A DNA stretch of 45,121 nucleotides, taken from contig JABLXG010000027.1 of assembly GCA_013178165.1 (NCBI GenBank), positions 1 through 45,121 of the forward strand. Reading direction: 5' to 3'. The translations under genes were made by a program, and so were the position numbers. Below, piece after piece: positions 16,384 to 28,715 of the stretch; positions within the stretch are counted from its first letter, which is position 1; each line of letters opens with the position of its first letter. The notes beneath the pieces are model-generated. The model was not told where the DNA came from. It was given only the letters and a program-made list of their open reading frames with translations, and searched no databases. The stretch is from Anaerolineae bacterium (GTDB lineage: Bacteria > Chloroflexota > Anaerolineae > Aggregatilineales > Ch27).

Positions 16384-17244
16384 ATGACGGTCCCCCCACA
16401 ATCAGAATTTACTATCGCGGATTATGACCGCACTGCTGCCTTTATCACTGCCAGGACTACACATCGTCCCTCTGTCGCCATCATCCTTGGCTCCGGCCTC
16501 GGCGCTCTGGCCGACAGCGTAACCAATGCCGCCAGTATCCCCTACGCGGAACTTCCCAACTGGCCTCATTCCACTGTCGCAGGTCACAGCGGGCAGCTGG
16601 TAATCGGCCACCTAGAAGGCCACACAGTCATGGTGATGCAGGGGCGTAGCCATTTCTACGAAGGCCAGGGTATGGCGCGGGTAACTTACCCCATCCGCGT
16701 CATGCAGCGCCTGGGTATTCGTGCGCTCATCGTGACCAATGCTGCTGGAGGGCTTGATCCAGCTTACCGGCCCGGCGATCTGATGCTGATCAAGGATCAC
16801 ATCAATATACCCGGCCTGGCTGGCCACAACCCGCTGCTAGGACCCAATAGTGATGAGCTTGGCCCGCGCTTCCCCAGCCTAACCAACGCCTACAACCGCG
16901 ATCTGCGACGGCTGGCGCGCGCAGTAGCGAACGACCTCAACCTGCTCCTGCATGAAGGCGTGTATGTCTACCTGTCAGGCCCGGCATTTGAGACGCCCGC
17001 AGAGATTCGTATGCTGCGCACGCTGGGCGCTCATGCCGTCGGCATGTCCACTGTTCCAGAAGTCGTTGTCGCCAACCATGCCGGTATGCGCGTCTTGGGC
17101 ATCTCCGGCATTTCCAACAGCGCCATCGATGATCCCGATGCAGATTTGCAACCTAACCATGATGAAGTCTTGGAAGCCGGTAAGACTATCGCCCCCAAAC
17201 TAACCGCGCTGGTTCGAGGTGTGCTCAGGCGTCTGGAGGCATAA
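16384..17244 (+). CDS. punA: Purine nucleoside phosphorylase, trimeric type
   Basis: Phosphorolyses purine nucleosides to free bases and (deoxy)ribose 1-phosphate. The 286-residue protein has phosphate-binding GSGLG at 36-40 and GRSHFYEG around 87-94, NAAGGLDPAYRPGD, the family stretch GPAFETPAEIR near residue 200, VGMSTVPE, and an Asn in the base-binding SNSA segment, which favours 6-oxopurines (inosine, guanosine) in trimeric enzymes. Length is normal. AGGA lies nine bases before the ATG. It has its own promoter and palindrome and could feed hypoxanthine and guanine into the purine island that starts 1 kb downstream on the other strand. Confidence 0.95.
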   Translation: MTVPPQSEFTIADYDRTAAFITARTTHRPSVAIILGSGLGALADSVTNAASIPYAELPNWPHSTVAGHSGQLVIGHLEGHTVMVMQGRSHFYEGQGMARVTYPIRVMQRLGIRALIVTNAAGGLDPAYRPGDLMLIKDHINIPGLAGHNPLLGPNSDELGPRFPSLTNAYNRDLRRLARAVANDLNLLLHEGVYVYLSGPAFETPAEIRMLRTLGAHAVGMSTVPEVVVANHAGMRVLGISGISNSAIDDPDADLQPNHDEVLEAGKTIAPKLTALVRGVLRRLEA

Positions 17245-18076: not shown

Positions 18077-19435
18077 TCAACGTAGACCCGCCCGCCGCAG
18101 GGCCCGCTCGTAATCCTCGGGCGTGTCAATGTCCTGCAGAATGCTGTCTGTGGCAACATTCACATAAGCGATGTCATCCACATTAGCGTTCACCAAGTCG
18201 CGCGGCGCACTACCGGCTGGCAACTCCAGCAGGCCCTGCCAGTGCCGCCGTCCGAACAGCACCGGATGCCCCCGCCGCAGATCAAAACTTGGAATGACAA
18301 TCCCTTTGCCGCCGTGGGCATACGCTTCCAGCACCCGCGCTACCACATAGCTTTGCAACTGCGGTTGATCGCCCAGGACAACCAGCGCTCCGTCATACCG
18401 CCCGCCCAGAACACGCAGCCCTGTCTGCAACGACGAGAGCATCTCACCGCACTCATAGTCGGGGTTGTGAACCACCTGGACCCCGTACCGTTCTGCGATT
18501 GCTGTAATACGGTCGGCGTCATGCCCGGTAACTACCACAATGTGCTCCAGCCGGGCCGCATAGAGCTGCCGGATGATCGCTTCCAGAACCGTCTCACGTC
18601 CCCACGGCAGCAACGCTTTGGTCTGCCCCATCCGGCTGGACTTCCCGGCTGCCAGCACTATCGCCGCTACCGGACGACGCACCTCATAGACCGGATCATC
18701 TTGGTTTTGCATGTCCCCCACAATAACACCATCAATCCGTGAGGAGCGCAGCAGGAGGCTAGCTGCAAGCTGGGCCTGCCGCCGCACCGTGCCAGCCATG
18801 GGCGTTTTGTTGAGCAATACCGTCACCGGTATGGTGACCGGCAGGTTCAGCAAACCCAGTTGCTCATCACGCAGAACAGAAGCCACCCATGGCCAGATCA
18901 CCGGCGCACCAACCGGATAGCCAAAGCGCCGGATCATCGCCTCCGGGTTATAGACATGCGTGTGGTCCAGCGGCTGACCGAGAACATCCATACTAGCGCT
19001 CAACACAATCCGTGTGGTCTCAAAAGGCACAACCGGCTCATGGGCATAGGGAGCCTTGAACGGTAAGCGGCGCGCGCCATCGGCTTCGACCAGGACAACA
19101 TCACTACTAACCCGATCCAGCAGGATATGCACATACTCAGGAGGAATGCCCTTGACTTTGCCATCACGAACATGGCTATAAAGAAAGACAAAGCGCGTCT
19201 TGTTAAGCGCAGCCGTCAACGTGGCCAGGTTGCCCTCAACGCGATCCAGCGACAGAGCGCTCGGCGCCAGTGCCAGTTCATCAACTGCAACGCGGGTCGT
19301 CGTCGTAGCCAGCACTCGCCAGCCCTCTGCCACCAGCTCATACGCCAGACGAAAAAGGGCTGAGGTTTTGCCGCCAGCCCCGACAAAGGCGATGACATCG
19401 CCCTGCTGTACCCGTAATGCGAACTTAAGTCGCAT
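18077..19435 (-). CDS. yqeC: YqeC-MocA fusion, Mo-hydroxylase cofactor maturation protein
   Basis: The 452-residue product joins two maturation factors. Residues 1 to about 245 match YqeC, a selenium-dependent hydroxylase accessory protein, with P-loop GAGGKTS at 19-25 and VLVEADGARRLPFKAP near 114-129. Residues from about 255 form a nucleotidyltransferase of the MocA type, beginning IVLAAGKSSRMG at 259-270, with LPW after it and VVLGDQPQL later, expected to attach CMP to molybdopterin. E. coli encodes these as separate genes. I chose ATG 19435, with GGGAG seven bases before it, overlapping yqeB by 11 bases. It is the last gene of the island. Confidence 0.9.
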   Translation of the reverse strand: MRLKFALRVQQGDVIAFVGAGGKTSALFRLAYELVAEGWRVLATTTTRVAVDELALAPSALSLDRVEGNLATLTAALNKTRFVFLYSHVRDGKVKGIPPEYVHILLDRVSSDVVLVEADGARRLPFKAPYAHEPVVPFETTRIVLSASMDVLGQPLDHTHVYNPEAMIRRFGYPVGAPVIWPWVASVLRDEQLGLLNLPVTIPVTVLLNKTPMAGTVRRQAQLAASLLLRSSRIDGVIVGDMQNQDDPVYEVRRPVAAIVLAAGKSSRMGQTKALLPWGRETVLEAIIRQLYAARLEHIVVVTGHDADRITAIAERYGVQVVHNPDYECGEMLSSLQTGLRVLGGRYDGALVVLGDQPQLQSYVVARVLEAYAHGGKGIVIPSFDLRRGHPVLFGRRHWQGLLELPAGSAPRDLVNANVDDIAYVNVATDSILQDIDTPEDYERALRRAGLR

Positions 19436-20279
19436 TCGCCACTCCCGGCAGTAATCCCAGACGGTGGCGAACAGCAGGCGAAACGAGCACCGCTTCCAGA
19501 ACCCCACCGCCTACAGCCAGCGATTTCTCCGAAATGGTGAAGCAATGATCGACCTTCGCCCGCGGATCGATATCGCCAATCTTCAGCCCGGCGGATACTG
19601 CCACGGTTGGGTGAATCAGGCCGCGTACCACCCCATCAAACTTGGCGGTGACTGGCTGGCCATTTACCTCGGCGACAATATCGCCTGCACGAACAGTATC
19701 ACCAATAGACCGCAGCGGACGCACAAACCCATCCTCCGGCGCTCGTAGCACTCGCAGCGCCGCTACGCCATTCATCTGCCCGGGGATACCGGTATCTGGC
19801 TCTGCATGTCCCTGCCAGTAGACCCTGCCCAGGTAGTGCCCCCGGTTAGTCTCCACAACTGCATGGCAGTGAACACCTGCTTCAAAGCCCGGCCCAAGCG
19901 CCACGACCAGCGGAGCCTCATCCAGTCGTGTATCAAGCGGACGCTTGGCCATACGGGCGTCGACGATCACCGTTGGCTGCCATTCGGCCAGCGGAGCTCC
20001 TGCTGGATCAATCAGAACAGGCACCTCGCCAGCCATCCAGACATCGCCGGCTGCTTCTATTCGGTCCACCAGCCGGGCCGTTATGCCGTCAACGGTGACG
20101 GAGCCTTCGTAGACCGCCGCACCATAGGCCACCCCACGCCGGACAAACAGGGGTTGCGCCAGTTCCAGCACCGCAACCGGAAACCCGGCCCGCTGCAGCC
20201 GGTAGACAACTCCGGAACCGAGGTCCCCGCCGCCGCGGACGACTATCCGCACCTGCCTAAAGATCGGCGCCAAGGCCAT
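19425..20279 (-). CDS. yqeB: YqeB/EF2563-family selenium-dependent Mo-hydroxylase protein
   Basis: YqeB proteins occur with selenium-dependent molybdenum hydroxylases; their biochemical role is unsettled. The roughly 284-residue product has a Rossmann-like start IVVRGGGDLGSGVVYRLQRAGF, DARMAKRPLDTR, and LGPGFEAGVHCHAVVET, all YqeB hallmarks, followed by a short biotinyl-lipoyl-like segment (DTVRAGDIVAEV). I start at ATG 20279, which overlaps the hydroxylase gene by 23 bases; a TTG at 20300 and a GTG at 20252 are alternatives because no start has an ideal ribosome site. Tight packing with its neighbours suggests one translational unit. Confidence 0.9.
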   Translation of the reverse strand: MALAPIFRQVRIVVRGGGDLGSGVVYRLQRAGFPVAVLELAQPLFVRRGVAYGAAVYEGSVTVDGITARLVDRIEAAGDVWMAGEVPVLIDPAGAPLAEWQPTVIVDARMAKRPLDTRLDEAPLVVALGPGFEAGVHCHAVVETNRGHYLGRVYWQGHAEPDTGIPGQMNGVAALRVLRAPEDGFVRPLRSIGDTVRAGDIVAEVNGQPVTAKFDGVVRGLIHPTVAVSAGLKIGDIDPRAKVDHCFTISEKSLAVGGGVLEAVLVSPAVRHRLGLLPGVANAT

Positions 20280-22488
20280 GCTCCCGCAGCCGTTGAACAA
20301 CCCGCTGAGGAGTCAGCGGAATCTCATCGAACCAGATACCAGTAGCGTCTTTCACTGCCGCGGCTACCGCCGCCGCCAGTGGCAGGTACGGCATCTCGCC
20401 CATCCCCCGTGCTCCCCATGGCCCAAGGGGATCCGGGTATTCCAGAATGATCGACTCCACGCGCTCCGGCACATCCAGAACCGTCGGGATCAGGTAAGTG
20501 GACAGAGTCGGGTTCAAAATCCGGCCATCCTTGACCACGAGTTCTTCCAGGATGGCATACCCCATCGCCTGTACGACGGCTCCCTCAACCTGTCCCTGCA
20601 CCTGCACAGGGTTCACGGCGCGCCCGACATCATCAGCGCAGTGAACACTAACCAGGGAAATCTGGCCAGTTTCCAGGTCGACTTCAACCTCAACCGCCTC
20701 GCTGACATAGCCATAGGCGAAATTGGGTTCGCTGCGACCAGTCTGGGGATCATAGGGTGTGGTCCTGGGTGGCCGGTAGACATACGTACCAACCGCCGGC
20801 CGTTCCTCCGCCTGCCATTGTTTGAGCGCTTCTTCCGCTGCCCCACGAATCGCATTGCCGGACATGAAGGTCATGCGCGAAGCCGATACGCTGCCCGAAT
20901 TGCGGGTGGAACTGGTATCAGACGCCACCAGGCGAACCTTCTCCAGCGACACACCGACCGCCTCCGCAGCCATCTGTTGCATGACGGTGTGCACGCCCTG
21001 TCCGACTTCCGCCGCCGCGTGATAGAGAATGACTTCCTCGATCTCGGTGTCACCCCGAAGCTCGATGATTGCCCAGCATGCTTCCGGCGCGCCAAAGCTA
21101 AATCCCACATTCTTAAAGGCGCAGGCAATACCACGCCCTCGCCTTCTAGCGGGATCAGCCGGCTGTTCCACTGGTTGGTGCTGCCACCGATCGCCATCCT
21201 GCCGCCAGAAGCTGCGCTCTGCGCATGCCGTGAGCACGGCCTCAATGGAGACTCCTTTAGGCACCGGCGTACCTACGGTAAGCAGACTTCCTTCCCGTAA
21301 GACATTCTTCTGGCGCAGCGTCACCGGATCCATGCCGAGTGCTTCCGCCAGTTTGTTCATCTGCATCTCGGCGGCAAAGGCACCCTGTGGCCCGCCAAAC
21401 CCGCGAAAAGCGCCCGTCGGGATGTTATTGGTGTAGACAGCGTAGGTGTCGATATGGGCATTGGGAATTTCATAAGGGCCGGTGACCATTAGATTGGTAT
21501 TTCCCAGCACCTTAGTCGAGGTATAGGCATACGCCCCGGCATCCCCCACAACCTCAGCCTCTACCGCGACGATCTTCCCCTCGCGGGTAGCTCCCCAGCG
21601 CGTCTTGATAGTAACCGGGTGTCGCTTGTGATGGCCCAGTATAGACTCTTCCCGGCTCCAGATGATTTTGACCGGCCGGCGCAGTTTGTATGCCGCGAGC
21701 GCCAGCACAATCTGAACCGACATATCCTCGCGTCCACCGAAAGCACCACCGATGGCCGGATAAACCACGCGCACCGATTCCTCCGGCAGACCAAGCGCAT
21801 GGGCGATCTGCTCGCGATCCTCATGTGTCCACTGGCCCGCCACCACTACGGTCACACGCCCTTGCTCGTCGATGTAGCCCAGCCCTGCTTCCGGCTGCAG
21901 GTAGGCGTGTTCCTGCCAGCTTGTTCGGTATGTTCCCTCAACGATCACCTCAGCGGCGGCCCACCCTGCCTGCATATCACCTTTGCGAATGCGATAGTGC
22001 GTCAGGATGTTGTTCGGCGTATTGGCATGCAAACGCGGCGCATCGTCGCGCATAGCAGCAAAAGGGTCGGTGACGACCGGCAAATCCTCATACGTGATTT
22101 CAATCAAATCGCGCGCCGTGGCCGCTGCCTCTTCAGTCTCTGCAATCACCAGGGCAATGTTGTCCATATAACAGCGGACAATATCCGCGTCAGGCCGCGT
22201 CCCGCCAGGTCCGCACAGCACAGGCTGGTCCGGCATGATTAGCCCATATTCATTGACCGGCACGTCTTTGGCCGTTAGAACCGCCACAACGCCCGGATAT
22301 TGTTCAGCGGCCGAGGTATCAAGGCGGGTGATACGGGCATGGGCGCGATCGGAGAAACGGATCTTCATGTACAATTGACCGGGCATATTGATGTCGCCCG
22401 GATACAGCGCATCTCCCGTCACCTTGCCAAGGGCGTCGGTACGTACCACACTCTGGCCGACTACCGCAAGCTTCTCGCCTTCGGTCAT
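20257..22488 (-). CDS. Molybdenum hydroxylase large subunit (xanthine dehydrogenase family)
   Basis: Binds the molybdopterin cofactor and hydroxylates a purine or related heterocycle. The 743-residue subunit has the usual N-terminal a/b hammerhead domain (GKVTGDALYPGDI), GGAFGGRED near residue 250, GAFRGFGGPQG near 360, AAAEVGQGVHTVMQQ and the catalytic-site GARGMGE ending with Glu698. Length fits stand-alone large subunits. Neighbouring yqeB and yqeC point to a selenium-containing active site rather than the ordinary sulfido form. The FAD/2Fe-2S partner is encoded at 24699-26129, separated by two unrelated genes. Substrate cannot be read from sequence; context suggests xanthine, hypoxanthine or urate-level purines. 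Confidence 0.93.
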   Translation of the reverse strand: MTEGEKLAVVGQSVVRTDALGKVTGDALYPGDINMPGQLYMKIRFSDRAHARITRLDTSAAEQYPGVVAVLTAKDVPVNEYGLIMPDQPVLCGPGGTRPDADIVRCYMDNIALVIAETEEAAATARDLIEITYEDLPVVTDPFAAMRDDAPRLHANTPNNILTHYRIRKGDMQAGWAAAEVIVEGTYRTSWQEHAYLQPEAGLGYIDEQGRVTVVVAGQWTHEDREQIAHALGLPEESVRVVYPAIGGAFGGREDMSVQIVLALAAYKLRRPVKIIWSREESILGHHKRHPVTIKTRWGATREGKIVAVEAEVVGDAGAYAYTSTKVLGNTNLMVTGPYEIPNAHIDTYAVYTNNIPTGAFRGFGGPQGAFAAEMQMNKLAEALGMDPVTLRQKNVLREGSLLTVGTPVPKGVSIEAVLTACAERSFWRQDGDRWQHQPVEQPADPARRRGRGIACAFKNVGFSFGAPEACWAIIELRGDTEIEEVILYHAAAEVGQGVHTVMQQMAAEAVGVSLEKVRLVASDTSSTRNSGSVSASRMTFMSGNAIRGAAEEALKQWQAEERPAVGTYVYRPPRTTPYDPQTGRSEPNFAYGYVSEAVEVEVDLETGQISLVSVHCADDVGRAVNPVQVQGQVEGAVVQAMGYAILEELVVKDGRILNPTLSTYLIPTVLDVPERVESIILEYPDPLGPWGARGMGEMPYLPLAAAVAAAVKDATGIWFDEIPLTPQRVVQRLREHGLGADL

Positions 22489-22494
22489 GCCTCT

Positions 22495-24267
22495 TCACCC
22501 TCCCACAACGTCACCGGCCTCCACAGGCAGAAGAGCGCCACCACTAATCCGCCTGATCTCTTGCTGGAAGATCCGCCGGAGAATGGCGATTGCCGCAGCG
22601 TACGTCGGTTCCACGCCACCATAGCTCAGGCTTCCGGCCCCCAGATTCTTGCCTTTGGTCAGCGGCGTATCCGAGACGTAATGCAGAAAGCCGACGTCAA
22701 AGGGCGTACCATACAGGGTCACGATCTCATTGTAAGGATGCCGTTTGGGGCGGACGGCCTCGTAGATCGCGGAAAGGTATGGCCCGGCCTCCATCTCAAT
22801 GTCGGTGTAGCCTTCCCGGTAGAATACATCCATATAGCGCGGATTCTGCAGGAAAGTCCCCCGTGCGCTGATCGCCTTCTGGTTGTCCAGCACCGAGCCG
22901 TAGGTGATGTATGGCGCAACGTCATCAGCATTGAAACAGTTGACCAGCAGGTAGGTGTTCTGAGAATGCTCGTCGTGGACAACATTGGGCAACACCACGT
23001 CGCCAATCCGGCTGTTGAGCGTCGCCGATTTGCCCATCACATATACGCCCAGCAATTCACCAACCTGAAAAGCCACCTCATTCAGCAACTCGTAGGCAGC
23101 CATACCAAGTGGATAATCAATGTTGAGCAGCACGGCATCGCTTTCTGCCAGCAACGCGATCCCGTCGACCGCTGCAACGCGCTGATCCAGGAACTCCGGG
23201 CGCACGTGCCGTAACTCCATAACCTGAGCCTCAACATCAAACCCCCGTTCGCTGGGCACGCGCAATAGCCCGATGGCCTGTTCCGCCTCCAACACCGCCC
23301 GGCGCACCTCTTCCCCGCAGTCCTGCAGGTACTTTTTCAGGACATAGTACAACAGGTTGTTATGATTTTGAGGAGATTGCCGGGATTGAATCGCCTGGTA
23401 TTCGGCCAGTAGATACTGCTGATCGGAGTCATGCAGGTAAGCCAGCAGGTCCTGCTCATGTCGCCAGGCATATCCATGTAGCAAGTTAGGCAATGCATGG
23501 GGATTACTGGATACAAAGTATACCGGTCGGCGTCCAAGCTCAATGCCATGATCGCGCGCCCGATCCGCCAGATTGGTCCACCAGCGGCTGGTAGCCTTAC
23601 GATAATGCGCCAGCGAACCGGAGAGCAGTTGCAGGCGGATGTTCTTGGGGCGTTCAGCCATCGCCGCCAGCGTTGGCGAAAAGTCCGCCCCCCACACTGC
23701 CTGCAGGCGTTGCAGGTCCTCCAGAGAGATTCGCAGTCCTGCCGCCAGCTGGGTCATATCACCCTCAGACATTTCCGGTTCACCGCTATACCGCCCTATC
23801 AGGCGACGGAGATTGCCTCCCTGCAACAGGCTATGAATCTTGTTCCACTCAATCTGATAGGCTGTCAGAGTCGGGATCAGGTCATCGATATCTGACCGGC
23901 TGGCGATATACACCGCCAGGACATCCTGGCCGTTAAAATGCATCCGCCGCCGCCGCCCCCTGGCGCTCACCCGTTGCCACATTTCGACATCGATGTAGCC
24001 GGCATTGATGAACACTTCTTCAGACTGGCCCAGCACAACCAGCGAAACCCGGTCAATGCACAGCGGCAGACGTAGACTGGCATAGATCAGGGCAGAAACA
24101 TCCGGTTCTGGATCTCGCGCCTTGGTGTGGAGCGAGGAATCCATGCCCATGTGCGCCTCAGTTAGGGTCAGAATCTGTATGGGATGCGTCGAGCGCAGCA
24201 GCGAATAGTACGTCCGTATATACAGCTCGATCTCTTCGCTACCGGTCTTGGGCACTGTCCGATCCAT
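22495..24267 (-). CDS. Unknown 590-aa protein with nucleosidase-like C-terminal half
   Basis: I cannot name this family with confidence. The N-terminal half (to about 380) is helical and soluble, with no membrane segment. The C-terminal half has features that recall the nucleoside phosphorylase/AMP nucleosidase fold: MGKSATLNSRIGDVVLP near 410, DIEMEAGPYLSAIYE with a Met-Glu pair at about 492-493, and FLHYVSDTP near 527-535 followed by SYGGVEPTY. In that fold the Met-Glu pair binds ribose and a late Asp the base. It sits between the Mo subunit (six bases away) and the FAD/FeS subunit, so a role in purine handling is inferred, not shown. ATG 24267 is the best start. Confidence 0.8.
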   Translation of the reverse strand: MDRTVPKTGSEEIELYIRTYYSLLRSTHPIQILTLTEAHMGMDSSLHTKARDPEPDVSALIYASLRLPLCIDRVSLVVLGQSEEVFINAGYIDVEMWQRVSARGRRRRMHFNGQDVLAVYIASRSDIDDLIPTLTAYQIEWNKIHSLLQGGNLRRLIGRYSGEPEMSEGDMTQLAAGLRISLEDLQRLQAVWGADFSPTLAAMAERPKNIRLQLLSGSLAHYRKATSRWWTNLADRARDHGIELGRRPVYFVSSNPHALPNLLHGYAWRHEQDLLAYLHDSDQQYLLAEYQAIQSRQSPQNHNNLLYYVLKKYLQDCGEEVRRAVLEAEQAIGLLRVPSERGFDVEAQVMELRHVRPEFLDQRVAAVDGIALLAESDAVLLNIDYPLGMAAYELLNEVAFQVGELLGVYVMGKSATLNSRIGDVVLPNVVHDEHSQNTYLLVNCFNADDVAPYITYGSVLDNQKAISARGTFLQNPRYMDVFYREGYTDIEMEAGPYLSAIYEAVRPKRHPYNEIVTLYGTPFDVGFLHYVSDTPLTKGKNLGAGSLSYGGVEPTYAAAIAILRRIFQQEIRRISGGALLPVEAGDVVGG

Positions 24268-24299: not shown

Positions 24300-24686
24300 T
24301 CAAAAGCGTCTTGAGTGCTCGCGGCTTTCTCGCTGCAATTTGCGCTTAAGCTGTTGCTTGCGCTCCTTTTCGGCTCGCTGCCGCTCGCGATACCTGGCAG
24401 ACTCTTTGGTGAAGGAGAGTGCTACGTCTTCGTCGTAGTCTCGACCGGCCAATATCGCCACGATAAACATCGACACGCCAAACATCACCAGCCACAACAC
24501 TGCCCCGACCAGCAGATCACTTGCCAGCGGGCTGAGCGTCCCAAAGGAAATGCCCTGTGTGCGAAGATATCGCTGTACATAGGGAAGAAGGACATAAGCG
24601 ATCACACCGAATGCAATCGCCAGGATGGCGCCAAAAATCGGCAGCAAGGGATTACGTCTACGCTTGTATTCCACGCGCTTGACCAT
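24300..24686 (-). CDS. Small membrane protein with charged tail
   Basis: A 128-residue protein with a basic N-terminus, two clear membrane helices (about residues 13-34 and 56-79), and a C-terminal cytoplasmic tail packed with Arg, Lys and Glu (AEKERKQQLKRKL) likely to be helical or coiled coil. I know no function. The upstream gene's stop codon TAG is part of its ribosome site TAGGAG, so the two are coupled. Its place within the hydroxylase genes may be incidental. Confidence 0.65.
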   Translation of the reverse strand: MVKRVEYKRRRNPLLPIFGAILAIAFGVIAYVLLPYVQRYLRTQGISFGTLSPLASDLLVGAVLWLVMFGVSMFIVAILAGRDYDEDVALSFTKESARYRERQRAEKERKQQLKRKLQRESREHSRRF

Positions 24687-24698
24687 GAGTACACGCTC

Positions 24699-26129
24699 CT
24701 ATGAATCGGCTTCCTGTACGATCTCAACTGCACGATGAACAGCCTCAACGATCTTGTAGTAGCCTGTGCACCGGCACAGATTGCCGGTCAGGCCCTGTCT
24801 GATCTGTTCGTCGGTGGGTTGCGGATTCTCCTCCAGCAGTTTTACCCCGGACATCAGGAAGCCTGGTGTGCAGTAGCCACACTGCACGGCCCCTTTTTCC
24901 ACAAACGCCTGCTGCACCGGGTGGAGCTTGCCATCCTGGGCCAGCCCTTCAACAGTCACAATCTGGGCGCTATGCGCGCGCGGCGCGGGCACTAGGCAAG
25001 CCATGACTGCCATGCCATCCAGAAACACTTCACACGCCCCACACTCCCCCTCCGCGCAGCCTTCTTTCGTGCCCGTCAGACCAATGTCTTCCCGTAGGAA
25101 CCGCAACAGTGTCTTGTCCTGGCCAACCGGCACGGTATACCGTCGGCCATTGACGATCGTCTCAATGGGCGTATCCCCAGGACGATGACGGACACTGACA
25201 GGTAGCCTGTAGCTCACCCGCCCGTTCGACTTTCCCCACAGCAACGGCGGGCGCACCGGCTGATCGCTACGCTCAGTTCCCGCCGCCAGGGCGCGCAACG
25301 CTCTCCGGACTAGCACACCGACCATCTCGCGTCGATAGGCGGCGCTCCCCCGGATATCATCGATTGGCCTTGCCGCCTGCATGGCCATCTCCGCTGCCGC
25401 CCCGATCGTTTCACGGTTCAGTCGCCTGCCACGCAAATACGTCTGCGCCTCCGGTACGGGGATGATGGTCGGCGCTACGCTGCCAAGCGTAATCCGGGCA
25501 TCAGTCACTACATCCCCGTCAAAGCCAGCGACAACAGCGACATTGACCACGGCAATTGCCTGTGCCCGCCGTAACCCTAGCTTCAGGAAGATGCCACGTT
25601 CATGCGGACGCAACAATGGCACGCGGATGTCAAGCAGCATCTCGTCCGGGCGCAACACTGTCCGCCGCACACCTTGATAGAACGCCCTCAGAGGCACGAC
25701 GCGCTCACCGTGCGGCGAGACCAACTTCACCGTGGCGTCCATCGCCCACAATGGTGTAATCGTATCGTTGGCCGGACTGGCTGTGATCAGGTTACCGGCA
25801 ATCGTGCCGCGATTGCGGATTTGAGGCGCGCCAACCGACCAGCACGCCTGGGCCAGCGGTAACGCGCGCTCCCAGAGCAACGCTGACGCAACCACCTGGT
25901 TATGCGTCACCAGCGCCCCCAGAACTGCCTCATCCTCGGTCACCGTGATGGAATCCAGGTCCGGCAGGCGTGAGATGTCAATCAGCGCCTCAACACCGGG
26001 CCTTTGCCCGCGCTCCATTTCGAGGATGATATCGGTTCCACCGGCGATCAGCCGCGCCCGCTCGCCATACTGGCTTAGCAGTTCCAGCGCCTCACGGATG
26101 GAAGTCACGCTGTAGTAATCCTGCCACAT
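24699..26129 (-). CDS. Fused FAD-binding and 2Fe-2S subunit of a Mo hydroxylase
   Basis: Electron-transfer subunit for the molybdenum hydroxylase. Residues 1-290 form the CoxM-type FAD domain with AGGTDI at 29-34 and RNRGTIAGNL at 105-114. Residues about 322-476 form the CoxS-type ferredoxin with Cys358, 363, 366 and 378 for the plant-type cluster and Cys417, 420, 452 and 454 for the second cluster. The FAD-then-FeS order in one chain is the reverse of eukaryotic xanthine dehydrogenase (FeS-FAD-Mo) and differs from E. coli, where YgfM (FAD) is separate and FeS is fused to Mo in XdhD. All eight cysteines are intact, so it should be functional. Confidence 0.93.
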   Translation of the reverse strand: MWQDYYSVTSIREALELLSQYGERARLIAGGTDIILEMERGQRPGVEALIDISRLPDLDSITVTEDEAVLGALVTHNQVVASALLWERALPLAQACWSVGAPQIRNRGTIAGNLITASPANDTITPLWAMDATVKLVSPHGERVVPLRAFYQGVRRTVLRPDEMLLDIRVPLLRPHERGIFLKLGLRRAQAIAVVNVAVVAGFDGDVVTDARITLGSVAPTIIPVPEAQTYLRGRRLNRETIGAAAEMAMQAARPIDDIRGSAAYRREMVGVLVRRALRALAAGTERSDQPVRPPLLWGKSNGRVSYRLPVSVRHRPGDTPIETIVNGRRYTVPVGQDKTLLRFLREDIGLTGTKEGCAEGECGACEVFLDGMAVMACLVPAPRAHSAQIVTVEGLAQDGKLHPVQQAFVEKGAVQCGYCTPGFLMSGVKLLEENPQPTDEQIRQGLTGNLCRCTGYYKIVEAVHRAVEIVQEADS

Positions 26130-26146: not shown

Positions 26147-26821
26147 TCAGGGCCGCACAGCCTTTGAACGCTCAGTCTGCAAAGAGTCGTCAAGTGTTAA
26201 CAGATAAACCGGATTAATGTTGATGATCTGGGTGCCCAGATAGGTCGTTGACGTCACGTCCCGGCGATCCCATACATCCACATGGCCATGGATAAAATAG
26301 CGTGGCCGATACCACCGGATCAAGAGTAAAAAGGACCTAAACCCCTGGTGCGGCAGATCGTCACGGTCATGTATGCCATACGGAGCAGCATGGGTCACCA
26401 TCAGATCCACGCCGTTGTGCCAGCGCATCCGCCGCCATAACATCCAGGGAGCAAGCTTGAGCACATTCGCCAGCATCTGGGTCTCGTCATATTGAATCGG
26501 CCCCTTGTTGTACCGCCGGCAGCCCTCCAGGCCAGCTATCCACAGATGGCGAAACCTGACTATCCGCCCGTGCAGATCATCGCCGCCGGGTGGATGTAGA
26601 GCATAACCTGTATCGTGATTTCCCCTGACATAGTAAACCGGCACGTTGAGCACACTGGCGACAAACTCAATATACCCCGCCGAAAGATCGCCACAACTGA
26701 TCAGAACATCAACATCGTGATACTTGCGGCGCAGGTAAGGGACATTCTGCATGTGTGGCAGTTCTGTGTCACTGATTGCCAGAACCTTCACCGCCGCCTG
26801 ATGCCCGCGCATACCATTCAC
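26147..26821 (-). CDS. Metallophosphoesterase
   Basis: A calcineurin-like phosphoesterase of 224 residues. Metal-site motifs in order are SDTELPH (D18), SCGDLSAG (D45), RGNHD (67-70), THAAPYG and IHGHVD. The first motif is DTE where most family members have DxH, as in a subset of bacterial phosphoesterases. It overlaps xdhC by four bases (GTGA), with GTG 26821 as the coupled start; an ATG at 26812 is the alternative. Substrate unknown; proximity to purine genes suggests, but does not show, a nucleotide or phosphate-ester substrate. Confidence 0.87.
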   Translation of the reverse strand: MNGMRGHQAAVKVLAISDTELPHMQNVPYLRRKYHDVDVLISCGDLSAGYIEFVASVLNVPVYYVRGNHDTGYALHPPGGDDLHGRIVRFRHLWIAGLEGCRRYNKGPIQYDETQMLANVLKLAPWMLWRRMRWHNGVDLMVTHAAPYGIHDRDDLPHQGFRSFLLLIRWYRPRYFIHGHVDVWDRRDVTSTTYLGTQIININPVYLLTLDDSLQTERSKAVRP

Positions 26822-27657
26822 GATCCCCGATCCTGCCCTGCAGCAGGCTCCTGGGTATCAAGCCAGCGCATCGAACGCCCATCACCGCCGTGCTGAACCA
26901 TGATAATCTCGGCAACTACGCTTACCGCGATCTCGCGGGGAGTCTCCGCCCTCAACTCAAGCCCTACCGGCGCGTGAACGCGGGCGAGTTGCTCGTCGCT
27001 AAACCCTGCCTGGCGCATGGCCTCAGCGGTCAAAGCCCAGCGCCGACGACTGCCAATCAGACCAATGTAACGCGCAGGAGACGCCAGAAGCACGGGCAGC
27101 AACTCCACATCAACAGTCTGCCCCCTCGTCATTGCCGCCACATAAGTCTGGCTGGTAATCGGGATATGCTTGGCCAGTTCTGCGGCAGGCGTGACGTAAT
27201 AGCCATCCATGTCCGGTATATGCGACGGCGTACACAGATCAGCCCGGTCATCACTAACCAGCACCCGGTACCCAACCCACTTCGCCAGAGCAGCCACTTC
27301 TTTGCCCACATGTCCGCATCCGATGACCAGCACCGTTGGTGGCGGCAACATCGGCTCGATAAAAACCTCCACCGTTCCTCCACAGACCCCTACATCGCCG
27401 GCAGCCATATCATTCATGCGATAAGTCAGCAAATCAGGTCGCGCAGTAGCAATAACCTGCTGCGCCGCCTCGATGACCTTCGACTCCAGCATGCCGCCGC
27501 CCACTGTACCGGCAATACGGCCGCCAAGCCATACGATCATCTTACTCCCTGCATGGCGCGGCACCGACCCTTGAGTGCGCACAACCGTCGCCAGGGCTAC
27601 GTCCTCGCCTTTCTCCTGTGCCTGCTGCAGCAACTTGAATAGGTCGTAATCGTTCAT
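26818..27657 (-). CDS. xdhC: XdhC/CoxI-family Mo-cofactor insertion protein
   Basis: XdhC-type proteins bind the molybdenum cofactor, protect it and deliver it, after sulfuration or an equivalent step, to hydroxylases. The 279-residue protein has the N-terminal XdhC/CoxI domain (ATVVRTQGSVPRHAGSKM, GTVGGGMLE, CGGTVEVFIEP) and the C-terminal Rossmann part (VIGCGHVGKEVAALA, SDDRADLC, IGLIGSRRR). Length is standard. I start at ATG 27657; a TTG at 27666 is in frame but less likely. It is coupled by GTGA to the phosphoesterase. Name follows R. capsulatus XdhC, not the E. coli FeS subunit of that name. Confidence 0.92.
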   Translation of the reverse strand: MNDYDLFKLLQQAQEKGEDVALATVVRTQGSVPRHAGSKMIVWLGGRIAGTVGGGMLESKVIEAAQQVIATARPDLLTYRMNDMAAGDVGVCGGTVEVFIEPMLPPPTVLVIGCGHVGKEVAALAKWVGYRVLVSDDRADLCTPSHIPDMDGYYVTPAAELAKHIPITSQTYVAAMTRGQTVDVELLPVLLASPARYIGLIGSRRRWALTAEAMRQAGFSDEQLARVHAPVGLELRAETPREIAVSVVAEIIMVQHGGDGRSMRWLDTQEPAAGQDRGS

Positions 27658-27707
27658 GGCTCCCAAGGGTGTTCCAGCGCCACAGGTCAGTTCAGCAAGC
27701 GGCTACC

Positions 27708-28715
27708 CTAAGCAGAATAGCCGTCTGCAAATGTGTCAATCATCAACCGTACGTCCTCACCAAGGGGGTAAAGCACCGGGCAGGTGCAACCGGCAGCAAC
27801 ATATTCCCGCACCTTAGCGCGCACTTCTTCCGGCGTTCCAGAGGCGGTCACCTGCTGGACCACATCGTCCGGTACGAGCACCATAGCGTTCTCGATCTGC
27901 TCTTCTGTGGCCGGCCAGGTCAACACCTGGTGGATTTCATCGAGCAATTCCTGGCTAACACCGCTCGCTTTCATGATGTGCGGCTGTTGCCCCAGATATT
28001 GGGTGACCAGTTTCCGCGCTGCATCCAGCGCCTTCTTACGGTCGCGATCTACCGAGGCAACGACCAGTTGTGGCCGGTCAATATCGTCTATCCGCCTGCC
28101 GCTGAGCTTCAGGCCCTTTTCGAGCTGCGCCAGGGCTTCCTCGTTGTACTTCGGCGACACAAGATAGTTGAGCAATACCCCATCAGCTATCTCACCGGTC
28201 AACGCCAGCATGTTTGGACCGGTCGCCCCAATATAAATCGGCACATTGCGCGGTTCCCGGCGACCATGCACCACATCCAGCTCCACGCCATGCATCTTTA
28301 CGAACTCACCCTCGTACGTCACGTTCTTCATGGCCAGCAGGGCGCGCACCACCTCAACCGTCTCGCGCATCGCCTTGAGCGGCTTCTGGCGGTCAATGCC
28401 TACGTTCCTGGCCAACGGGTCCCACCAGGCGCCAATTCCCAAGATGATCCGGTTCGGAGCTAGGTCGTCCAGCGTCAGGAACGTTGAGGCAATCAGCGCC
28501 GCATTGCGCGTCCAGTTGTTGATCACACCGGAGCCAATCTTGATCCTGGTGGTTGTTGCGGCAAAGGCCGCCATTGGCACAATGGCATCCCGTACCAGCC
28601 GGCTCTCGGCCTGCCAGACCGCTTCAAAACCTTTGCTTTCCGCGTATCGAACATACTCGATTGCCGCGCTCAGTTCATGGGCGTCCTGCAAATAGAGGGC
28701 TACTCGGTCAGCCAT
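27708..28715 (-). CDS. LLM-class flavin/F420-dependent oxidoreductase
   Basis: A TIM-barrel oxidoreductase of the luciferase-like monooxygenase class, 335 residues. Seen motifs include [54 protein letters not shown] and the late VLYPLGEDV. Members closest in pattern to methylenetetrahydromethanopterin reductase use coenzyme F420 rather than FMN. Its ATG overlaps the cofC stop as TGATG, so it is translationally coupled to an F420 biosynthesis gene, which argues strongly that F420 is the cofactor. The substrate is unknown; the surrounding island suggests a purine-derived heterocycle, a speculation from context only. Confidence 0.88.

Follow-up and report, generated by a model that had tools for sequence, protein, structure and literature searches.

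Gene content and organization of the locus

The stretch of DNA analysed here, a 45,121-nucleotide contig from an Anaerolineae bacterium (hereafter the window), carries a gene for a 590-aa protein of the Pfam family DUF6909 (PF21850) among genes of a xanthine dehydrogenase-family molybdenum hydroxylase. The genes that bear on its interpretation are the following, in order of position:

16384..17244, plus strand: ordinary purine nucleoside phosphorylase (PNP), a separate gene (NF006054 and TIGR01700, both over cut-off)
18077..19507, minus strand: YqeC fused to a MocA-like cytidylyltransferase (TIGR03172, 140 bits against a cut-off of 73)
19425..20300, minus strand: YqeB, a marker of selenium-dependent Mo hydroxylases (TIGR03309, 344 bits against a cut-off of 220)
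20257..22488, minus strand: Mo subunit of the xanthine dehydrogenase-family molybdenum hydroxylase (PF02738, PF20256, PF01315)
22495..24267, minus strand: DUF6909 gene, a 590-aa ORF with an ATG start (PF21850, E 5.6e-219; AlphaFold2 model)
24300..24686, minus strand: small membrane-protein-like ORF of 128 aa (from the ORF list)
24699..26129, minus strand: fused FAD and [2Fe-2S] hydroxylase subunit (PF00941, PF03450, PF00111, PF01799)
26147..26821, minus strand: metallophosphoesterase (PF00149)
26818..27666, minus strand: XdhC-family maturation factor (PF13478, PF02625)
27708..28715, minus strand: luciferase-family oxidoreductase, probably F420-dependent (PF00296; role suggested in PMC12507026)
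31041..32510, minus strand: SsnA, the amidohydrolase of reductive purine degradation (507 bits against a cut-off of 444)

The 590-aa gene first proposed at 22495-24267 is borne out by an ORF on the minus strand, a DUF6909 family match, and full-length relatives at 52-63% identity; the plus strand of the same interval contains seven stops. The PF21850 match spans residues 34-568 and scores 728 bits against a curated cut-off of 27, making the protein a full-length member of the family. The description of the protein as unknown still applies to its function, as Pfam assigns the family none, but not to its membership in a named family. The profiles PF01048 (PNP_UDP_1) and PF10423 (AMNp_N) gave no match at E values up to 1, so that DUF6909 is the sole Pfam family reported, and no NCBIfam profile matched the protein. 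A sequence search of the PDB returned nothing better than E 1.2, and DUF6909 is unmentioned in the literature searched.

DUF6909 is present in single copy in the source genome, in 124 of 346 genomes of the same class, and in 140 of 400 Chloroflexota genomes, as compared to none of 14 controls. A plasmid search recovered only two homologues, both from Persicobacter and 23-27% identical, and the one that was tested matches the same Pfam model.

Six bases separate the end of the DUF6909 ORF from the start of the Mo-subunit ORF at 22488, as originally noted. The gene is also flanked by both hydroxylase subunit genes between which it had been placed, but the 128-aa ORF intervenes on the FAD/FeS side. 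ORFs similar to this small ORF form two clusters, which take the position just before DUF6909 in 26 and 13 other loci, respectively. From the XdhC gene through the metallophosphoesterase, FAD/FeS subunit, small ORF, DUF6909, Mo subunit and YqeB genes to YqeC-MocA, neighbouring genes overlap or lie less than 35 bp apart, and it is thus likely that they form one transcription unit.

The Mo subunit falls under every NCBIfam equivalog cut-off. Loci of selenium-dependent Mo hydroxylases are marked by YqeB, YqeC and SsnA (PMC2276186); YqeB and YqeC are both encoded in the window, and SelD is encoded in the genome (372 bits against a cut-off of 125). The SelD frame (L139, G000:C32:61473-62408) contains one in-frame TGA, like selenocysteine-containing SelD.

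In Chloroflexota SsnA clusters, as described in PMC12507026, a luciferase-family F420 enzyme replaces YgfK/UacX. The same reductive uric acid set of SsnA, luciferase-family F420 enzyme and xanthine dehydrogenase-type hydroxylase is present in the window, and the likeness to the published cluster extends to a hydantoinase, a PALP enzyme, a carbamoyltransferase and carbamate kinase. The window differs in that no YgeY-type peptidase was identified, and in the presence of DUF6909: neither it nor a nucleosidase is described in the main text of that paper, where the string 'nucleosid' has no occurrences. Between 37176 and 44926, a run of genes for a carbamate kinase, two carbamoyltransferases, an adenine deaminase, a D-hydantoinase and an enzyme of the 8-oxoguanine deaminase type makes up a broad purine-catabolic set.

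Predicted fold of the DUF6909 protein

The protein divides into two regions, within which four putative active-site elements can be placed:

23638..24267, minus strand: N-terminal domain, residues 1-210 (model of residues 1-226, conservation)
22543..23637, minus strand: catalytic region with predicted nucleoside phosphorylase-I (NP-I) fold, residues ~211-575 (VIA-align and model secondary structure)
23497..23511, minus strand: loop S253-S254-N255-P256-H257, which follows the first core strand (S253, N255 and H257 conserved in Chloroflexota and Bacteroidota)
23029..23031, minus strand: Lys413, invariant (conservation; position from strand order)
22774..22803, minus strand: DIEMEAGPYL, residues 489-498, with the putative ribose-binding motif E491-M492-E493 (model and conservation)
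22669..22674, minus strand: S532-D533, with the putative catalytic Asp at a core-strand end (model and conservation)

An AlphaFold2 model of the protein, built from a 56-sequence alignment, has a pLDDT of 87.7 and a pTM of 0.88. When residues 227-568 of the model are compared to known structures with VIA-align, all 50 of the matches listed are NP-I enzymes, the best being hexameric purine nucleoside phosphorylases (top Z 17.3, rmsd 2.6 over 214 residues). Foldseek against the PDB ranks uridine phosphorylases, MTA/SAH nucleosidases and MTA phosphorylases highest, from E 2.4e-6, with AMP nucleosidases at E 1.2e-5 and 1.6e-5. An NP-I fold is therefore predicted for residues ~226-571, with much more certainty than attaches to any reaction. 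The original prediction of a nucleoside phosphorylase-like C-terminal half agrees with the model and with both structural searches, none of which indicated an unrelated fold; the NP-I part of the model is larger than the range proposed for it, residues 380-590, and begins near residue 226. In the secondary structure of the model, a helical insertion (~266-331) splits the NP-I region. DUF6909 thus resembles hexameric PNPs of the E. coli DeoD type in its core (Z about 17 over 214-218 residues) and in its E-M-E and S-D motifs, and differs from them in its large N-terminal domain, the insertion, and the apparent lack of the phosphate-site arginines.

The N-terminal domain is modelled with similar quality when residues 1-226 are taken alone (pLDDT 89.1), and its residues R66, R105-R107, D129, E140 and K143 are conserved in the family. 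No confident match to residues 1-226 was found in the PDB (best Foldseek E 0.21, best VIA Z 3.7). The claim that this half is new is consequently not refuted at the level of structure, although the domain is a conserved part of a family that Pfam has named. Weak structural matches to residues ~33-226 (23590-24171) are mostly NP-I chains, uridine phosphorylases among them, with Z up to 3.7. These hinted that the domain might be a degenerate half copy of the NP-I fold, an idea that was not adopted because an internal profile comparison gave nothing clear (22.8 over 13 columns, as compared to 16.3 for the reversed profile).

The putative active site

Enzymes of the NP-I fold keep a ribose-binding Glu and a catalytic Asp at the ends of core strands. 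The same arrangement is found in the DUF6909 model, where E491-M492-E493 and S532-D533 lie at core-strand ends, the equivalence being by motif and strand order and not by coordinate superposition. Both motifs, together with N255, H257 and K413, are kept in ~98-100% of 153 proteins, including both Bacteroidota homologues. The Met-Glu pair that had drawn attention to DIEMEAGPYL is universally conserved.

Phosphate in E. coli PNP is bound by three arginines, R24, R43 and R87. By motif alignment, without superposition, the corresponding positions in DUF6909 are A258, a non-conserved site and V410, whereas K413 would, by strand order, lie in the strand that carries R87 and S90 of the E. coli phosphate site. 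The phosphate-site arginines thus appear to be missing, with Lys413 near the site they occupy in PNPs, an arrangement that, in so far as motif and strand order identify equivalent positions, favours hydrolysis or a nucleotide substrate. The protein could nonetheless be a phosphate-dependent nucleoside phosphorylase, with an unusual phosphate site formed by K413, N255 and H257. Hexameric PNPs are after all its best structural matches, and K413 is invariant in the strand of the PNP phosphate-site residues; given the three arginines for which motif and strand order show no counterpart, and the normal PNP already encoded in the window, a phosphorylase is unlikely.

A possible functional parallel is AMP nucleosidase (Amn, EC 3.2.2.4), which also has an extra N-terminal domain before its NP-I core. 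The base and sugar are contacted in Amn by N205, W383, M404, E405 and D428, and the phosphate by R381 and K436 and by H188 and Y189, while distant Amn homologues keep only M404, E405 and D428 (PMC9584410; numbering confirmed on the E. coli Amn sequence). By motif, DUF6909 keeps likely equivalents of M404-E405 (in E491-M492-E493) and of D428 (D533). By eye, the SDxPL stretch can be matched as well, as can an Asn that follows the first strand, which would place N255 opposite Amn N205. On the other hand, DUF6909 is not matched by PF10423, has an extra helical insertion, and shows no recognisable, conserved counterpart of R381, W383 or K436 in the motif alignment, the sequence alignment itself not being significant. 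Profile-profile comparison of DUF6909 with Amn (10 sequences) gave a score of 15.7, which is not above the 20-21 of reversed controls, and comparisons with E. coli DeoD and Mtn were likewise at noise. The resemblance to Amn seen by eye is thus a lead only.

Association with molybdenum hydroxylase genes

A hydroxylase subunit gene lies near DUF6909 in 36 of 46 homologous loci with adequate flanks, a set skewed to close relatives (the best 80 of 157) that was later widened with loci from sampled genomes. Of the 153 loci in the widened set, 63 have the FAD/FeS subunit nearby and 60 the Mo subunit, and there are 53 instances of a Mo subunit that follows DUF6909 directly on the same strand. In a tree of 152 DUF6909 proteins (FastTree, rooted on the Persicobacter pair, with local support only), the 67 hydroxylase-linked genes all fall within one clade of 100 members (support 97), outside of which no member is linked, and the linkage state changes 8 times as compared to 49.8 in shuffles. 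Such a distribution points to one recruitment that has been held across many families, and to a linkage that is neither due to chance nor universal; the unlinked members within the clade look like later losses.

The gene content of the flanks follows the same division. Of the 39 linked loci whose flanks are long, 25 have YqeC-MocA, 19 CofC, 17 an F420 oxidoreductase, 13 YqeB, 10 PNP and 7 SsnA, whereas 58 unlinked loci have a single F420 oxidoreductase and none of the others. The proposed link to the hydroxylase therefore holds for one large clade, where it comes with purine-catabolism markers, but other lineages carry DUF6909 elsewhere; homologues with no link to purine genes, named beforehand as the outcome that would speak against a base-handling role, make up the unlinked part of the family. 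In 18 loci, for instance at L105:5930-7273, the hydroxylase genes are preceded by one for a pyrophosphatase-like protein with DHH, CBS and DHHA2 domains.

DUF6909 as a universal component of the hydroxylase was considered and rejected, because only a few genomes in an even sample of the phylum have the fused FAD/FeS orthologue close to DUF6909, and linkage is confined to one clade. A role as an accessory or maturation protein, or as a bound subunit, with the NP-I fold serving the molybdopterin dinucleotide cofactor or selenium insertion, is suggested by the position of the gene between the subunit genes, by its placement directly before the Mo subunit in the 53 cases above, and by the nearby XdhC, YqeB and YqeC-MocA genes. 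It is quite unlikely, since no hydroxylase small-subunit match was found in five DUF6909 genomes (G004, which is 98% complete, G009, G032, G045 and G063), many genomes have the fused hydroxylase subunit and no DUF6909, and the conserved residues are identical in linked and unlinked members. Identity of these residues means that the reaction is probably the same in both groups and not specific to the hydroxylase. General cleavage of nucleosides or nucleotides would fit this pattern of conservation, and a hydroxylase-specific maturation role would fit it less well.

DUF6909 in other genomic contexts

In seven of eight Ktedonobacteria loci, DUF6909 immediately follows a short gene for a PF01555 N6/N4 DNA methylase, and in the eighth it lies two genes away from it; in Persicobacter a PF10672 methyltransferase lies 20 bp upstream. 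In seven loci of another clade, a gene for a TIR-domain protein of ~180 aa sits just upstream (PF13676, TIR_2, in the two that were tested). In the TIR-bearing loci, DUF6909 is often followed by a nitroreductase gene and preceded, at a greater distance than the TIR gene, by one for an M2/M3-type peptidase.

The methyltransferase neighbours, in conjunction with the MTA/SAH nucleosidases among the Foldseek matches, are suggestive of an enzyme resembling S-adenosylhomocysteine/methylthioadenosine nucleosidase that serves methyltransferases, with the hydroxylase link secondary. This is very unlikely: most homologues have no methyltransferase nearby, and AhcY is encoded by 319 of the class's 346 genomes and by the majority of those with DUF6909, leaving no gap for an SAH nucleosidase to fill. 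DUF6909 as a replacement for SAH hydrolase likewise finds no support, given the near-universal presence of AhcY, and this reading was rejected. Finally, the TIR-domain gene in one clade and the adjoining DNA methylase in another might be taken to indicate an effector in nucleotide sensing or defence, or else a regulator with no catalytic role, but this is extremely improbable for a protein that has the profile of a metabolic enzyme (single copy, about 55% identity across the phylum, intact predicted catalytic residues and a metabolic operon) and for which a phage search found no homologues.

Proposed function

The reading preferred here, for which the chances are judged to be about even, is that DUF6909 is a divergent purine N-glycosidase of the NP-I fold that was recruited once, in one Chloroflexota clade, to feed or salvage bases for the hydroxylase pathway. 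The predicted substrate is a purine nucleoside or 5'-nucleotide, whose N-glycosidic bond the enzyme would cleave, probably hydrolytically like AMP nucleosidase, with E493 acting on the ribose, D533 on the leaving base, and N255, H257 and K413 arranged around the sugar-phosphate or water side. Following its single recruitment into an operon of the selenium-type molybdenum hydroxylase, it would supply or salvage a purine base that the hydroxylase degrades, with the F420 and SsnA steps acting downstream. Counted against a purine N-glycosidase are the lack of any sequence profile that joins DUF6909 to NP-I, the Amn residues R381, K436 and W383, which are not recognisable in DUF6909, the missing purine link in most members beyond the clade, and the three PF01048 proteins, one of them a PNP, that the source genome already encodes.

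In a stronger form, which is put forward tentatively and is rather doubtful, DUF6909 would be an N-glycosidase of nucleotides or nucleosides that forms a new class within NP-I and has an N-terminal domain of its own. Within the one clade, it would be the dedicated entry enzyme of F420-linked, selenium-molybdenum purine degradation, possibly coupled to the hydroxylase such that the base is passed directly.

The Chloroflexota version of the reductive purine pathway, in which an F420 enzyme takes the place of YgfK/UacX, has so far been recognised through gene neighbourhoods alone. The present analysis proposes a base-supplying step for this recently described pathway, and provides a testable fold and active site for a Pfam family that has no assigned function and occurs in roughly one in three of the Chloroflexota genomes sampled.
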